Shown in pieces: positions 16,902-31,609 of a DNA stretch of 32,229 bases (position 1 is its first letter; each line of letters opens with the position of its first letter). A model generated the notes under the pieces. That model was not told the origin of the DNA and did not search any database. It saw nothing but the letters and a program-made list of their open reading frames with translations. Location of the stretch: NCBI GenBank assembly GCA_021158465.1, contig JAGGUN010000021.1:1-32229 (forward strand), written 5' to 3'. This DNA comes from a bacterium. GTDB taxonomy: Bacteria; UBP14; UBA6098; 4484-93. A program made the translations under genes and the position numbers.

Positions 16902-18058
16902 AAATTGACCTGACCAACAGCTCCCGCTACGATATCTGGTCCGAGATAGACCTCAATAAGTTCAGAAATAACATAAGAAAGATGAAGCGCCTGACCGAGG
17001 GCAGAGAGATACTGCTCGCTATCAAGGCAAACGCTTACGGGCACGGCGCCGAGGTCATCTGCCAGGAAGCAGAAAGGGAAGGAATAAGGCTCTTCGGTCT
17101 CGCCACAACTGAAGAAGGGATCGCACTGAGAAAAGCCGGAATACGCTCAAGGCTCGTCATCCTGACACCTGCTGTGTTCGAACAGATAGAAGAGATAATC
17201 CGCTTCGAGCTATCCCCCAACATCATCGAAAGACGCTACGCAGAAATAATATCCCAGGAAGCAGAAAAAAGAGGAAAAACCACCATCTGCCACATCGAAG
17301 TGGAAACCGGTATGGGCAGAACAGGTATATTCTGGGAAGATGCTGTCGGAGAAATAGTATCAATCGCAAGGCTACCAAATATAAAAATCGAAGGGATATT
17401 TACACACTTCCCAATCGCCGATTCCTTCAAAAAAGAGGACATAGAGTTTACACGACTACAGATAAAAAGGTTCGCTTTCGTCCTGAAAAAGCTCGATGAA
17501 CTAGGAATAAAAATCCCCATAGTGCATATATCAAATACAGCAGGGTTTATGAACTACCCCCTGATGGGGAACTGCGTCCGACCGGGGATACTCGCCTACG
17601 GACTGTATCCATCCAAACAGGTGAAAAAGAAGATAGCCGTTGAACCGATACTCGAGCTCAAGACAAGGGTAGTCCAGGTGCAACAGTTCCCAAAGGATTG
17701 GTCTATAAGCTACGGCAGAACATACAAAACAACCTCACCAACAAGAGTAGCTATCATCCGGGCAGGATACGCAGACGGACTGAGACGCTCACTCTCCAAC
17801 AAAGGAGAGGTTCTGCTCGGCGGAAGAAGATGCAAAATAATAGGTAGAATATGTATGGACACAACAATGGTGCTTGTTCCCGAGGATATGAAGGTAAATG
17901 TCGGAGACGAGGTCGTCCTAATCGGAAAACAAGGTGAAGAGGAGATCTCAGCCGATGATATGGCTGCATTAGTCGATACAATCAACTACGAGATACTAAC
18001 AGGAATATCAGAAAGGGTACCAAGAGTCTATCTCGGCGTGAGAAACAGCAATGGTTAA
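16898..18058 (+). CDS. alr: Alanine racemase
   Basis: The 386-aa product makes D-alanine for peptidoglycan. The PLP lysine is Lys43 in AIKANAYGHG. The second catalytic base is Tyr272 in ISYGRTY, followed by AGYADGLRR and GRICMD near the C-terminus. The start is the ATG at 16898, which overlaps the TPR gene's stop (ATGA); a longer frame from 16853 lies inside the TPR gene and is not needed. The downstream channel gene overlaps by 8 nt. Its presence indicates a peptidoglycan wall. Confidence 0.95.
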   Translation: MKIDLTNSSRYDIWSEIDLNKFRNNIRKMKRLTEGREILLAIKANAYGHGAEVICQEAEREGIRLFGLATTEEGIALRKAGIRSRLVILTPAVFEQIEEIIRFELSPNIIERRYAEIISQEAEKRGKTTICHIEVETGMGRTGIFWEDAVGEIVSIARLPNIKIEGIFTHFPIADSFKKEDIEFTRLQIKRFAFVLKKLDELGIKIPIVHISNTAGFMNYPLMGNCVRPGILAYGLYPSKQVKKKIAVEPILELKTRVVQVQQFPKDWSISYGRTYKTTSPTRVAIIRAGYADGLRRSLSNKGEVLLGGRRCKIIGRICMDTTMVLVPEDMKVNVGDEVVLIGKQGEEEISADDMAALVDTINYEILTGISERVPRVYLGVRNSNG

Positions 18059-19271
18059 AAGTATCGATGCCATAGTGGCAACCATCCTCTCTCTCCTGAC
18101 CCTATTCCTTATATTCTTTACATTCACAAAGGCAAAGAGAAGCCGCTTCGATGGAAAACTACCAAGATTTCTCTTCCATACAAACCTCGGAAAAGGAATA
18201 CTCCTGCTTCTCTCACTCTGGATACTATCCTCTTCACTCATCTATATAAGTGAGCGCTGCTTCTGCCAGGGAGACGACCTCAACAACTCCTCCTTCAGAA
18301 CACTACCACGCTCACTCGTGGGGATGCTATACCCCGCTACCGTCTTCTACGGAATGGAACAAGGAACACCATCGAGCTTTGTAGGACAATTGATAGCCGC
18401 TTTGACATCCCTCGGATACCTCCTCGTGGGAACACTCTTTATCGGAGCGGCACTACTCGATAAACTCCGCCAATCCTGGAGGAAAAAGATGAAGATAAAC
18501 TGGGAAGACCACTTCGTTGTGTGCGGCTGGAACGAGAATATGGAAAAGATACTGACTCAGCTGACAAACCCTGCCCTCGGAGACGAGAAAAGACCGATCG
18601 CAGTGCTCGTCCGCGAAGAAGAGGTGGAAGATGTGCAGAATATAATCGAACGGCTCGACGCACAACAGCAAATAAAAACTGTGAGCGGTTCGCTGGTCTC
18701 AGAAAACGACCTAAAAAACGCCGGGGTCCAGAACGCCAAAGGAGTCCTCATCCTACCACCAGCAGGAGATAATAACCCCGAACTCGCTGTCCTATTCTGC
18801 GCACTGAGCATAAAGAAGATGAAGGACGAGTCGGACAAAAAACTGCCACAGATTATAACATACATCGAAGACAATGACTTCGCCAACAAGCTCTCACATA
18901 TCGCAGACACCGTCATAACACCAACAGAAACCGATGTCCTCCTATCCGCAACCGCCCTCCTCTACCCCGATACCGTAGAGATATACAGACGACTTATGAC
19001 AATCAGCGAGGAGACAAACGAAATATACCTCGTGAAGGTCCCAACCCCATGGACGGAAAAGAAACTCTCCTTCTACGAACTGGCTGAAATAATTACAAAA
19101 AAGAACCGCACGGAATCACCCGTAACACTCATCGGACTCAAACGGAATAAGAAAATCTACATAAACCCAAAGGATGACGATATCGGATATATAAAAGAAG
19201 ACGATAAACTCATCGTCATAGCAATGAACTACCCGATGAAGAGATTGGAAAAAATGGCAACTGGCGATTAG
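18051..19271 (+). CDS. RCK/TrkA-N-domain ion channel protein with non-canonical filter
   Basis: The 406-aa product has hydrophobic segments at about 6-24 and 48-66, a pore-helix-like stretch with TVFYGM (97-102), and a third segment at about 112-136. A cytoplasmic RCK/TrkA-N domain starts at DHFVVCGWNE (about 153-162), and a second regulatory domain reaches the C-terminus. The layout is that of MthK-like two-TM channels or CASTOR/POLLUX relatives. The canonical K+ filter TVGYGD is replaced by TVFYGM, so selectivity is uncertain. Start ATG 18051 overlaps the alr stop by 8 nt. The stop at 19271 is followed by the enhancer region of hsp20. Confidence 0.75.
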   Translation: MVKSIDAIVATILSLLTLFLIFFTFTKAKRSRFDGKLPRFLFHTNLGKGILLLLSLWILSSSLIYISERCFCQGDDLNNSSFRTLPRSLVGMLYPATVFYGMEQGTPSSFVGQLIAALTSLGYLLVGTLFIGAALLDKLRQSWRKKMKINWEDHFVVCGWNENMEKILTQLTNPALGDEKRPIAVLVREEEVEDVQNIIERLDAQQQIKTVSGSLVSENDLKNAGVQNAKGVLILPPAGDNNPELAVLFCALSIKKMKDESDKKLPQIITYIEDNDFANKLSHIADTVITPTETDVLLSATALLYPDTVEIYRRLMTISEETNEIYLVKVPTPWTEKKLSFYELAEIITKKNRTESPVTLIGLKRNKKIYINPKDDDIGYIKEDDKLIVIAMNYPMKRLEKMATGD

Positions 19272-19308
19272 TGGCAATCCGGGTCAAAAATTGTGTAATT
19301 ATGCCTAT

Positions 19309-19325
19309 TGTGGCAATTTGCCACA
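19309..19325. promoter_or_regulatory. Perfect 17-bp palindrome, candidate enhancer site for a sigma-54 activator
   Basis: TGTGGCAA-T-TTGCCACA is an exact 8+1+8 inverted repeat centred about 111 bp upstream of the expected hsp20 start. Extra half-sites GTGGCAA (19271..19277) and TGCCACA (19330..19336) flank it. Position and multiplicity fit a bacterial enhancer-binding protein. No such activator gene is in the window. Confidence 0.65.
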
Positions 19326-19401
19326 TATATGCCACAAGATGTCAATAGACAGTAGCTCCAGCAATCCCCTAAAATAAACCACTTGCAGCAAGGGCGGTGT
19401 T

Positions 19402-19417
19402 TGGCACGAATATTGCT
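19402..19417 (+). promoter_or_regulatory. Sigma-54 (-24/-12) promoter of hsp20-dnaK
   Basis: TGGCACG-AATA-TTGCT matches the sigma-54 consensus TGGCACG-N4-TTGCW at every fixed position, with GG and GC 12 bp apart. The expected start is near 19428, about 33 nt before the hsp20 ATG. I see no sigma-70 or CIRCE-like element in the same spacer. rpoN itself is encoded at 25713..27107. Confidence 0.85.
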
Positions 19418-19460
19418 TAACTTCTTGCGGAGACAAAAAACAGAAAGGAGGTGAGGCAGT

Positions 19461-19904
19461 ATGGCGTTAGTAAGGTGGAGACCGATGATGAGACCTATCC
19501 TCCCGATTGAGGAAGAGGTTAACCGCATTATGAGGAACTTCCTCAGGGCTTTTGGGGAGGAGGAAAGCCTATTTGAGACCTTTCCTGCTGTGGACATTAG
19601 GGAAAGGGAAGACAGCTTCATAATCGAGGCTGAGATACCTGGGATGGACAAGAACGACATCAAGGTTAGCATTCAGGATGATGTAATCACCATCTCAGGT
19701 GAAAAAAGGCGTGAGGAAAGGGTAGAGGATTACGAAGAGATCAGGATCGAGCGTTCCTGCGGCAAGTTTTCTCGCTCGTTCAGGCTTGGTGTTCCAGTGG
19801 AGGCAGACAAGGTAAAGGCAAGATACAAAAACGGTGTGCTTACCATCACTGTCCCGAAGAGCGAGAAGGTCCGCGGGAAGGAGATCCCTATCGAGGTCAG
19901 CTAA
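19461..19904 (+). CDS. hsp20: Small heat shock protein, Hsp20/alpha-crystallin family
   Basis: The 147-aa product binds unfolding proteins and keeps them in a refoldable state. The alpha-crystallin domain spans about 42-140: PAVDIRE, FIIEAEIPGMDKNDIKV, ITISGEKR and the terminal GVLTITVPK. The C-terminal I-x-I type anchor for oligomer assembly is IPIEV (142-146). AAAGGAGGTGA lies upstream of the ATG. The gene follows an apparent sigma-54 promoter and precedes dnaK with a strong hairpin between, so the pair probably forms a stress operon. Confidence 0.95.
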   Translation: MALVRWRPMMRPILPIEEEVNRIMRNFLRAFGEEESLFETFPAVDIREREDSFIIEAEIPGMDKNDIKVSIQDDVITISGEKRREERVEDYEEIRIERSCGKFSRSFRLGVPVEADKVKARYKNGVLTITVPKSEKVRGKEIPIEVS

Positions 19905-19912
19905 CACCAAAC

Positions 19913-19933
19913 GGGGGGAGACCTTCTCCCCCC
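19913..19933 (+). other. GC-rich hairpin between hsp20 and dnaK
   Basis: GGGGGGAG-ACCTT-CTCCCCCC forms a perfect 8-bp stem with a 5-nt loop. No T-tract follows (TAACACC), so it is more likely an attenuator or mRNA-stability/processing element than a full terminator. It sits 11 nt before the dnaK ribosome binding site. Confidence 0.6.
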
Positions 19934-19954: not shown

Positions 19955-21853
19955 ATGGGGAAGATTATCGGCATTGACCTTGGGACAACCAATTCCTGTG
20001 TCGCTGTTATGGAGGGTGGAAAGAGCACTGTCATTCCAAACAAGGAAGGAGCAAGGACCACCCCATCCGTCGTTGCGTTCACCGACAAGGGAGAGAGGCT
20101 TGTCGGAATAGTCGCAAAAAGACAGGCTATCACCAATCCAAAGAACACTATCTTCTCGATAAAGAGGTTTATGGGCAGGAGGTTCTCGGAGGTAAAAAAC
20201 GAGGCATCGGAGGTCCCGTATGAAGTCACAGCAGACTCCAGCGGTAATGCCCGTGTCAAGGTAGGAGGGAAACTTTATTCTCCTCCTGAGATATCGGCAA
20301 TGATTCTACGCAAGATGAAGGAAACAGCGGAAGATTATCTCGGTGAGAAGGTGACGGAGGCGGTTATCACAGTTCCAGCTTACTTCAACGACAGCCAGAG
20401 AAAAGCGACCAAGGATGCAGGAAGGATTGCCGGGTTAACTGTCAAGAGGATAATAAACGAGCCTACCGCCGCAGCCTTAGCATATGGGTTCGACAAAAAG
20501 AAGCAGGGAAAGATTGCTGTATATGACTTAGGCGGTGGGACGTTTGACATATCAATTCTCGAGATTGCGGAAGGTGTATTCGAGGTAAAATCCACCAACG
20601 GAGATACACATCTGGGTGGAGATGACTTCGACCAAAGGATAATCGACTGGGTTGTGAGTGAGTTCAAGAAGCAGGAAGGGATAGACCTATCGCGTGATCC
20701 GATGGCTTTGCAGAGGCTAAAGGAGGCTGCAGAGAAGGCAAAGTGTGAGCTTTCGACCACGCTTGAGACCGAGATAAACCTGCCGTTCATAACCGCCGAT
20801 GCCAGTGGACCGAAGCATCTCAATATGAAACTTACACGCTCGAAGCTGGAACAGCTCGTAGACGACCTGATTGAGCGGACAGCAGCTCCCTGCAAAAGGG
20901 CTTTAGCAGATGCCGGGCTTGAGCCGTCAGACATAGACGCGGTGATACTGGTCGGTGGTCAGACAAGAATGCCTGCTGTCCAGGAGAAGGTGAAACAGTT
21001 ATTCGGCAAAGAACCGCTTAAAGGGATAAACCCAGACGAGGTTGTAGCAGTGGGTGCGGCTATTCAGGGCGGAGTATTAGCTGGCGATGTAAAGGATATC
21101 CTGCTTCTGGATGTAACTCCTCTCTCTCTTGGGGTTGAGACACTCGGCGGCGTGTTCACCAGGCTCATCGAGCGGAACACAACCATCCCAACGAAGAAAA
21201 CAGAAATATTCACCACAGCTCAAGACGGACAGACATCTGTGGAGATAAATGTCCTTCAAGGAGAACGACCAATGGCTCGAGACAACAGAAGCCTTGGCAG
21301 GTTCTACCTCGAAGGAATTCCGCCTGCTCCAAGAGGTGTCCCAAAGATAGAGGTAACATTCGATATCGACGCAAACGGTATCCTGAATGTGTCTGCAAAG
21401 GATATGGCAACAGGTAAGAAACAATCGATACGGATTGAAGGCTCATCCGGACTATCAGACGAGGAAATTCAGCGGATGATCAAGGAGGCAGAAGCACACG
21501 CTGCCGAAGATAAAAAGAAACGCGAGGAGGCTGAGCTGAAGAACCAGGCGGACAACCTCGCATATACAACGGAGAAGCAGATGAAGGAGCTGGGGGACAA
21601 GATCTCCGAATCCGACAGGCAAACACTTGAAAACAGAATAAAAGAGCTCCGAGAAGCCATCAAGAAGAACGAAATCAACCAGATAAGAACAGTTATGAAG
21701 GACCTACAACAAGACTGGTTCCGTATCTCCGAGTCGATATACAAGACGCAAGCACAAACCGGATCAACTGGCTCAACTACAACCACCGATGAATCAGAAG
21801 GTAAAAAGGAGGAAGGCGGCACAGAGAACGCAGATTATGAGGTGATAAGCTAA
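19955..21853 (+). CDS. dnaK: Chaperone protein DnaK (Hsp70)
   Basis: The 632-aa product is full length. The ATPase domain shows [14 protein letters not shown] (about 5-18), the VTVPAYFND motif, [13 protein letters not shown] and [11 protein letters not shown]. The linker [13 protein letters not shown]-type motif reads [18 protein letters not shown]. The lid region is helical and charged, and the end is Glu/Gly-rich (NADYEVIS). DnaK refolds proteins with DnaJ and GrpE. The ATG at 19955 has GGAGG 5 nt upstream. grpE is not adjacent, and the only J-protein nearby lacks the zinc finger. It is probably driven from the sigma-54 promoter ahead of hsp20. Confidence 0.97.
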
Positions 21854-21902: not shown

Positions 21903-21925
21903 AAAGGCAGAAAAGGTTGTATATT
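21898..21925 (+). promoter_or_regulatory. Sigma-70-type promoter of the zinc protease/DnaJ-like operon
   Basis: TTGACA, a 16-bp spacer and TATATT are seen, with the expected start about 20 nt before the ATG at 21953. Confidence 0.65.
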
Positions 21926-21952
21926 CCTTTCTCAAAAGAAAGGAGAGGCAGA

Positions 21953-22630
21953 ATGTTCTTCTTCGATTGGACATTCATTCTGCTTATACCGGTTCTCATT
22001 CTCTCATTTTGGGCACAGCACAAGGTCTCATCGACATTCGCAAGATACTCGAAGATCCGCTCATCCTCCGGGCTGACGGGAAGAGAGGCTGCAGAGAGGA
22101 TAATCTCAGCCTACTCGCTCGGTAACATAAAGATAAGATCAATTGGGGGAACACTGACTGACCATTTCGATCCGAGAAGGAACGAACTTGCCCTGTCGGA
22201 GCCGGTATATAACTCCCCATCAGTTGCTGCCATCGGTGTTGCCGCACATGAGACAGGGCACGCTATCCAGTACGCAAGAGGGTACCTACCTGTGAAGATA
22301 AGGGGAGCTATCGTTCCGATTGCAGGGTTCGGTTCAAATCTTGCTATCCCGCTTTTTATATTCGGGTTTATCTTCGGGCTTCCATCTCTTGTAAAAACGG
22401 GGATAATTCTGTTCTCGTTTGCCGTCATCCTTCACCTCGTCACACTACCCGTGGAGCTCGATGCATCGAGGCGAGCACTCATCGCACTGAGGGAAACAGG
22501 TTCAGTCAGTGAAGGAGAAATTGCCGGCGTCCGCAAGGTTCTGACAGCCGCTGCAATGACATATGTTGCTGCAACACTTATGGCTGTTGCACAGCTTATA
22601 AGACTTGTTCTCATATCGAGAAGGACATAA
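21953..22630 (+). CDS. YugP-type membrane zinc metallopeptidase (Zn_peptidase_2)
   Basis: The 225-aa product begins with a membrane segment (about 3-20). It has the zinc motif HETGH (99-103, catalytic Glu100) in [17 protein letters not shown]. Hydrophobic segments follow at about 117-145 and 148-166, then a likely third ligand Glu169 in [10 protein letters not shown] and a final membrane segment (about 196-221). The family (COG2738) is common, but its substrates are unknown. The ATG at 21953 follows AGGAGAGG; a longer frame from 21917 reads promoter DNA. The next gene starts 1 nt after its stop. Its place beside dnaK and a J-protein hints at membrane-protein quality control, which is inference. 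Confidence 0.85.
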
Positions 22631-22631
22631 T

Positions 22632-23519
22632 GTGGAGTTCAAGGATTACTACAAGACCCTCGGTGTACCGGAAAACGCATCAGAAGAGGAGATAAAACGA
22701 GCCTTCCACAGACTTGCAAGAAAGTATCACCCGGATGCTAACCCCAACGACCCGCAAGCTGCCGAGAAGTTCAAAAGGATATCAGAGGCGTACGAGGTCC
22801 TAAGCGACAAAAAGAAACGCGCCCAGTACGACGAGGTGCGAAGATACACACAAGGCACAAGAATTCCACACGGAGGAACAGGCGAATTCGATTTCTCCGA
22901 TATATTCAACCACTTCAGGGGAAGAGGAATAGGGTTTGAATTCAACTTAGAGGAACTTCTCCGCTCATTCTTTACAGATACCCCGTTTGAAACGGTGTCA
23001 CGAACTGTCCCAAGAACATTTGAAGCAAGCATCACCATACCGTTCGAGCTCTCAATCAAAGGCGGGACAACAACGGTCGAACTGCCCGTGCCTGGCATAT
23101 TCCGACGAAGGAAAAGATTCAGAATCAACATTCCACCAGGGATAAGAGACGGAGAGAGACTTGTCGTCCGGGGAGACAAGGCAACCGGTAACATAACATT
23201 AACCATCCACATTGCACCCCACAGAGGCTACAGAAGGGTTGGAGACGACATACATACGAGCGTGACACTGAACCTTGCACAGTTTATCCTCGGGTCAAAG
23301 ATAGCGCTTTCCCTTCCAACAGGGAGGAAGATAGCAGTGAATATCAAACCAGGAACAAAGGTTGGAGCAAGACTGCGCATCCCAGGGGAAGGAGTAAGAA
23401 CCGCTCGAGGTACAGGAGACCTATATGTAAAACTGAACCTGGAGATACCTAAGAAGCTGACTGCGAAACAGAGGAAGAAGTTCGAGGAGTTCGCCCATTC
23501 GATGGGATGGAAATGGTAG
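22632..23519 (+). CDS. DnaJ-like co-chaperone without zinc finger (CbpA type)
   Basis: The 295-aa product opens with a J domain (about 5-68) including HPD at 33-35 ([10 protein letters not shown]), which stimulates DnaK ATPase. A short Gly/Phe region (about 82-105) and two beta-rich substrate-binding domains (about 130-290) follow. There are no CxxCxGxG repeats, so it belongs to the CbpA/type II group. The start is GTG at 22632, directly before [10 protein letters not shown], with AAGGA 7 nt upstream. It probably serves the DnaK encoded just upstream, though from a separate promoter. Its end overlaps the next gene by 13 nt. Confidence 0.9.
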
Positions 23520-25712: not shown

Positions 25713-27107
25713 ATGAAACTAAGACTTGAGCAGAAGCTCATTCTAAAGCAGATACTTACCCCCCAGCTCATCCAGACGATGAAGCTTCTGCAGATACCCC
25801 GTCTCGAGCTTGAGAAAGACCTGAAGCTGGAATTGGACACCAACCCATTCCTTGAAGTTGTTGAGGAAAAAGAGCGTAACCCCGACCAAAAGGTTGAGCA
25901 AGAACTCGACGAGTGGGATAACTTCATCGAGCAGATGAACCTATCGTTCCCTCATATACTCGAGAAGGAACCAGAAAGCGATTTCGAGCCTATAAATGTC
26001 GTCCCCGCAAAGGAGAAACTTTTTGACCATCTGATGAAACAGCTACGCCTATCCACAAACAACAAAAGAGAACTCGTAATAGGAGAGGCAATCATCGGAA
26101 ACCTTAACCGCCGGGGGTTCCTGTCCCTCCCACTTGAGACCATCATCGAGTATATCAACGAGGGGTTAAAACTTACTCCCCCAACGGACAAGGATGAGGT
26201 AGAAAAGGTGCTTTCGGTCATCCAGACATTCGACCCACCAGGAATAGCAGCAAGAAACCTCAAGGAATCGCTTCTCATCCAGCTGGAGAACCTTGGGAAA
26301 AAGGATAGCCTTGCATACAGGATCATAAAAGAGGAGTTCGAGAACCTGTTGTCGGAGAGCACATACCAGATAACAAAAAGGATGGGAGTATCCAATGAGG
26401 AGTTCGCAAAGGCTTTGTCAATCTTGAGAACACTATCATTTGCCCCTGCATCAGAGTTTGATACTACCAATCACCCAATCGAGCCTGACCTCGTTGTGGA
26501 GAAGGTGAACGGGAAATGGGAGGTGAGATACAATAACTCATCCATCCCAACCCTCAGGGTCAACCGCCGGTATATGGATATGCTCAAGAATCGGAGGAAA
26601 CTCTCCAAGGAAGAAAGGAAGGACCTGCTCAACAAACTCAACTCAGCAAGATGGTGGGTTAGTTCACTTCAACACCGCGAAAGCATACTTGTCGCCACAA
26701 TGAAGGAGTTGATTGCCCACCAGCTGGAGTTCTTCGAGAAAGGACCAGGGAACCTACACCCTCTAAAGATGGAAGAGATCGCAAACGAGCTCGGAGTACA
26801 TACTGCCACCATCTCGAGGGTGGTCAGTGATAAGTATGTGCAGACACCTTACGGAACATACCCGATGAAATACTTCTTCACACAGGGGCTAAAGAACCTG
26901 AGCGGAGAAGCCACATCCGCCGAGAAGGTCCAAAAACGGATCGAAGAGATCGTGAAACAGGAGGATCCATCACTCCCTTTGAGCGATCAGGCTATATCCG
27001 ATATGCTGCGCAAAGAAGGGATCATATGCGCAAGGAGAACAGTCGCAAAATATCGCCAGAAACTCAATATCCCGCCGGCAAGATTCCGCAAAAGACAAAG
27101 GGAATAA
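25713..27107 (+). CDS. rpoN: RNA polymerase sigma-54 factor
   Basis: The 464-aa product directs RNA polymerase to -24/-12 promoters and needs an ATP-driven activator to open DNA. Region I is the Gln/Leu-rich start (LEQKLILKQILTPQLIQTMKLLQIP). The core-binding domain follows, then the HTH (MEEIANELGVHTATISRVV) and, at 440-449, the RpoN box ARRTVAKYRQ that reads the -24 element. Start ATG 25713 has AGGAAGAG upstream. lipA begins on the last base of its stop. The near-consensus sigma-54 promoter at 19402..19417 is a likely target. Confidence 0.97.
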   Translation: MKLRLEQKLILKQILTPQLIQTMKLLQIPRLELEKDLKLELDTNPFLEVVEEKERNPDQKVEQELDEWDNFIEQMNLSFPHILEKEPESDFEPINVVPAKEKLFDHLMKQLRLSTNNKRELVIGEAIIGNLNRRGFLSLPLETIIEYINEGLKLTPPTDKDEVEKVLSVIQTFDPPGIAARNLKESLLIQLENLGKKDSLAYRIIKEEFENLLSESTYQITKRMGVSNEEFAKALSILRTLSFAPASEFDTTNHPIEPDLVVEKVNGKWEVRYNNSSIPTLRVNRRYMDMLKNRRKLSKEERKDLLNKLNSARWWVSSLQHRESILVATMKELIAHQLEFFEKGPGNLHPLKMEEIANELGVHTATISRVVSDKYVQTPYGTYPMKYFFTQGLKNLSGEATSAEKVQKRIEEIVKQEDPSLPLSDQAISDMLRKEGIICARRTVAKYRQKLNIPPARFRKRQRE

Positions 27108-31536: not shown

Positions 31537-31609
31537 GCCCACGTAGCTCAGATGGTGGAGCACGTCCTTGGTAAGGACGAGGTCATCGGTTCAAGTCCGA
31601 TCGTGGGCT
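31537..31609 (+). tRNA. tRNA-Thr (anticodon GGU)
   Basis: The cloverleaf is complete. Acceptor GCCCACG pairs with CGTGGGC. The D stem is GCTC/GAGC. The anticodon stem CGTCC/GGACG encloses TTGGTAA, giving anticodon GGT. The variable loop is 5 nt and the T stem is ATCGG/CCGAT with TTCAAGT. Discriminator is T and CCA is not encoded. tRNA-Thr close to tuf is a common bacterial arrangement. Confidence 0.97.

Follow-up and report, generated by a model that had tools for sequence, protein, structure and literature searches.

The hsp20–dnaK locus

The window, by which we mean the whole 32,229-nt stretch of DNA that was analysed, carries hsp20, which encodes a small heat-shock protein, and downstream of it dnaK; a spacer of 189 nt separates hsp20 from the TrkA/RCK-domain gene that precedes it. 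The features referred to below are as follows.

18051–19271, + strand: TrkA/RCK-domain gene, upstream neighbour of hsp20
19255–19276, unstranded: two outlying TGGCA copies (19255 and 19272), overlapping the 3' end of the TrkA/RCK-domain gene
19311–19344, unstranded: proposed enhancer, from comparison of class-mates (TGGCA 19311, TGCCA 19319, TGCCA 19330, TGTCA 19340)
19346–19375, + strand: weak sigma-70-like box TAGACA-N18-TAAAAT, 10/12, not conserved and probably a chance match
19402–19417, + strand: sigma-54 promoter, −24 TGGCAC and −12 TTGCT, GG-N10-GC, 11/11 match, conserved in 13/13 class-mates with the hsp20 orthologue
19427–19460, + strand: 5' leader with Shine-Dalgarno sequence AAAGGAGG, predicted from the sequence
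19461–19904, + strand: hsp20, small heat-shock protein of 147 aa (PF00011, E 5.8e-25)
19955–21853, + strand: dnaK, ATG at 19955 (PF00012, E 5.2e-274)
21917–22630, + strand: zinc peptidase gene (PF04298), downstream of dnaK on the same strand
22605–23519, + strand: DnaJ-type gene, downstream of dnaK on the same strand
25713–27107, + strand: rpoN, encoding sigma-54 (PF00309, PF04963, PF04552)

The Pfam domains confirm the identities that a sequence-only reading of the window had assigned to hsp20, dnaK and rpoN. The last of these lies about 6 kb downstream of hsp20–dnaK and encodes a full-length RpoN in which the activator-interacting (AID), core-binding (CBD) and DNA-binding (DBD) domains are all recognised, confirming that the sigma-54 factor exists in this genome as that reading had held. 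A scan of the genome found this dnaK to be the sole Hsp70 gene, the other match (C9) being weak and partial (34.9 bits). The gap between hsp20 and dnaK contains a perfect 9-bp inverted repeat, GGGGGGAGA-CCT-TCTCCCCCC (19913–19933), which could lead to unequal output of the two genes; the fold of the whole region around it is not significant (z −1.3). One tRNA gene is found at 31537–31609 (Rfam).

A conserved sigma-54 promoter before hsp20

The sequence TGGCACGAATATTGCT (19402–19417; TGGCACG-AATA-TTGCT) matches the sigma-54 −24/−12 elements at 11 of 11 positions with the correct GG-N10-GC spacing, bearing out the earlier description of a consensus promoter at 19402, and is positioned 59 nt 5' of the hsp20 ATG (19461). 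It is the single match in the window to TGGCACN5TTGCW with 0 mismatches. Placing the start about 12 nt beyond the −12 C gives a predicted +1 at 19427/19428, 33 nt ahead of the ATG, in agreement with the start near 19428 proposed earlier. An RNA thermometer was considered, as the sequence ACUUCUU (19420–19426) can pair with the Shine-Dalgarno sequence, but was rejected because this stretch precedes the predicted start and would not form part of the transcript.

Throughout the 2.04 Mb genome there are 11 exact matches to TGGCACN5TTGC, and four of these are intergenic and lie 42–79 nt before a same-strand ATG: two before pilin genes, one before a secreted-protein gene adjoining an activator gene, and the one before hsp20. 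Pilin genes are a usual target of sigma-54, and these two sites (79 nt before the gene in L002 on C4 and 42 nt in L008 on C36) make good positive controls. At the secreted-protein locus (L009/L033 on C39) the secreted-protein gene, behind its exact site, comes after one encoding a TPR-GAF-AAA+ sigma-54 activator. When one mismatch is allowed, the genome yields 129 matches as against 123 for a reversed-pattern control, that is, no enrichment. The genome scan for the motif before chaperone genes that had been proposed thus returned an exact intergenic site at hsp20, but near-matches overall stood at control level, and because near-matches are as frequent in the reversed control a lone exact match is weak evidence.

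The sequence-only reading had set conservation in relatives as a test, and the −24/−12 elements are kept in every class-mate (genome of the same class) that has an hsp20 orthologue: a site of this kind lies 57–78 nt before hsp20 in 13/13, and seven of these sites are exact. Twelve class-mates have the full hsp20 upstream region; the thirteenth, G012, was scored apart and its hsp20 promoter is also exact. The best sites within 200 nt before hsp20 in the twelve score 11, 11, 11, 8, 11, 10, 11, 9, 11, 9, 10 and 9 of 11, and the six exact sites among them compare with a mean of 0.004 in shuffled sequences. In the alignment of the twelve, TGGCA and TG are invariant (12/12) and the middle and spacer are variable; in G008 and in families f2 and f4 the −12 GC often gives way to GT, a weaker match. 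Three further loci, from named relatives, have no sigma-54 site before hsp20. Since the promoter is conserved at hsp20 across the class-mates, we regard it as more than a chance match.

A phased TGNCA array upstream of the promoter

The four pentamers at 19311–19344 form an array at about −84 to −117 relative to the predicted start. Counting from 10 to 160 nt upstream of the promoter, we found 64 TGNCA pentamers in the 12 class-mates against 11.2 ± 3.2 expected from dinucleotide shuffles (no more than 21 in any of 500), and 36 of the 52 successive intervals measure 8–11 bp, or one helical turn. In 603 kb of (partly redundant) loci, clusters of at least four TGNCA within 45 bp are confined to the region before hsp20, and 25 of the 28 intergenic triples in 935 kb of loci likewise precede hsp20. 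The spacing of half-sites in the array is mixed, from N3 to N6, and defines no single dimer site. The outlying copies at 19255 and 19272 are possibly due to chance. The genome's other hsp20 (C7) precedes a lon-like gene and lacks both an array and a good sigma-54 site. We also looked for a wider regulon with a TGTCA array pattern; every match other than those at hsp20 fell inside a gene and the idea was dropped. The array looks like a putative enhancer for a sigma-54 activator, and as a sigma-54 promoter needs an enhancer it would fill a predicted need.

Candidate activators

Nine sigma-54 activators are encoded in the genome, and comparison among class-mates leaves groups C, D and A as candidates for the protein that may bind the array, with A and D compatible by profile only. 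The group C protein (L031) has receiver, AAA+ and HTH_8 domains and an adjoining histidine kinase gene. In G008 its orthologue is divergent from hsp20, with the TGNCA array between the two genes; group C is missing, however, from f2, although f2 has both promoter and array, so the adjacency in G008 may be coincidental. Group D (L038), whose N-terminus has no Pfam receiver match, is present in all four families, and group A (L036) is in nearly all class-mates sampled. Group B, which we take to be a pilin regulator, is a poor candidate. A GAF domain was found in only one of the nine (L033), and similarity of the HTH to that of E. coli NorR singled out no clear activator. A search for TGNCA clusters before the activator loci, as a sign of autoregulation, found none at the loci covered except in the shared spacer of G008.

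Taken together, the conservation among class-mates, the TGNCA array and the nine activators support the proposal of the sequence-only reading that dnaK is under an activator-dependent sigma factor, and we put at roughly 0.8 the probability that hsp20–dnaK forms a sigma-54 transcription unit served by an enhancer of its own. In the mechanism that we envisage, RNA polymerase with RpoN would bind the −24/−12 site as a closed complex, and an activator with an AAA+ domain, a GAFTGA loop and a Fis-type HTH would bind the phased array about 85–117 bp upstream of the start. The array-bound activator would then loop to the sigma-54 polymerase at 19402 and, once triggered by its signal, hydrolyse ATP and so open the promoter. 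Chaperone output would in this way track the sensed signal through the activator, not through sigma-32 or the release of HrcA from CIRCE. The promoter, the array, the conservation of both, rpoN, the activator genes and the lack of CIRCE are read from the sequence; we infer that the array binds the activator, that the 19402 site drives transcription of hsp20–dnaK and that the activator responds to stress.

Other heat-shock controls and alternative explanations

HrcA is encoded in the genome, and hrcA-grpE, preceded by what reads as a sigma-70-like promoter (TTGACA-N17-TATTTT), is at a locus separate from hsp20–dnaK. No CIRCE element (TTAGCACTC-N9-GAGTGCTAA) was found in the hsp20 spacer or in the whole genome at up to three mismatches. 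Among the class-mates, CIRCE at groES is kept in f3 and mostly in f4. Matches to the sigma-54 pattern at groES in f4 are themselves CIRCE (TTGGCACTC...GAGTGCTAA) and were excluded from the sigma-54 sites. Upstream of groES in G013 (L099), an 11/11 sigma-54-like site stands together with a CIRCE half, GAGTGCTAA.

The spacer had been described as free of both CIRCE and sigma-70 elements; the first part held, and the second did not, given the weak box at 19346–19375. This box might give transcription in unstressed cells, with a 5' end near 19382. Tandem promoters have a precedent (PMC8762339), and a dnaK without a basal promoter would seem to put the cell at risk. Against this, a 10/12 box anywhere in the region is found in just 2 of the 12 class-mates, at other positions, which is what shuffled sequences give (mean 0.99), and we consider a functional sigma-70 promoter here unlikely. 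Less likely again is that the array serves a repressor or other regulator unrelated to sigma-54, the real promoter being activated from elsewhere. Its variably spaced half-sites match no known activator site exactly and no protein is tied to it, but its position at about −85 to −117, its helical phasing and its strict association with the sigma-54 promoter suit an enhancer, and in E. coli norV, a target of NorR and sigma-54, half-sites of a like kind (GTCAATTTGAC and GTCATTTTGAC) precede the sigma-54 site. That the sigma-54 match is a chance look-alike before an ordinary sigma-70 or HrcA-controlled hsp20–dnaK is very improbable: near-matches do equal the reversed control genome-wide and CIRCE can mimic the motif (TTGGCACTC, at groES of G004, G007 and G009), but the site is conserved at a fixed distance in 13/13 class-mates and CIRCE is found at hsp20 in none of the 13.

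Distribution beyond the class

The order hsp20 then dnaK is seen in most class-mates where the contig permits, and also in G073. Outside the class, sigma-54-like sites precede hsp20 in G073, G022, G094, G017 and G054, which belong to other phyla, and in others, several of the sites with TGNCA pairs, and similar sites precede dnaK in G054 (11/11), G022 and G017 (both 10/11) and G094 (9/11). In G022 one 11/11 site stands ahead of hsp20, a short gene of FmdB-like type, groES and groEL (L092). It is a tentative suggestion, to which we give somewhat less than even odds, that a regulon of sigma-54 and TGNCA enhancers is an independent heat-shock control of the dnaK/hsp20 arm that replaces sigma-32 or HrcA in several phyla, with HrcA/CIRCE retained, in some lineages, for groESL alone.

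Discussion

To call sigma-54 control of chaperones unheard-of would be too strong, since precedents are given in PMC4316790 and PMC12316311. A sigma-54-dependent promoter is reported for E. coli ibpB (PMC4316790, citing Kuczynska-Wisnik et al. 2001), likewise a small heat-shock gene; as described there it is an addition inside a sigma-32 operon, whereas here the hsp20 promoter is conserved, with dnaK behind it and a phased array before it. Our own scan of the 250 nt before E. coli ibpB gave a best site of 9/11 at most. The Chlamydia trachomatis hrcA-grpE-dnaK operon, with tandem sigma-66 and sigma-54 promoters (PMC8762339, citing Soules et al. 2020), is likewise a dnaK operon with a sigma-54 promoter; by that account it combines HrcA/CIRCE with sigma-66, whereas here dnaK is split from hrcA-grpE and has neither CIRCE nor a conserved sigma-70 box. 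Sigma-54 sites have also been predicted before chaperone genes, including those for IbpA and DnaK, in Planctomycetota and Bacteroidota, which are other phyla, and the available text names no TGNCA enhancer or activator (PMC12316311). In Salmonella rpoH is listed among the predicted sigma-54 operons (PMC3844500). In form the array resembles that of E. coli NorR/norVW, where GTCA-N3-TGAC half-sites, as we read them in the E. coli sequence, lie upstream of the sigma-54 promoter. The target genes differ, and NorR has a GAF domain, whereas the candidates here have a receiver or an unrecognised N-terminus and the spacing runs from N3 to N6. Measured against the open-access literature, what is new here is the arrangement at a sole dnaK, the class-wide conservation and the TGNCA array, with an earlier description of such an array elsewhere being possible.

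Judged from the sequence, Hsp20 and DnaK in this uncultured bacterium and across its class are probably switched on by a dedicated activator, in place of the normal heat-shock controls. Without an ATP-driven activator a sigma-54 promoter stays silent, and the supply of the sole Hsp70 found, basal as well as under stress, would therefore hinge on a signalling protein. Should the TGNCA array prove to be a chaperone enhancer of general use, it would provide a sequence signature by which such control could be found in uncultured phyla and its activator and signal identified.
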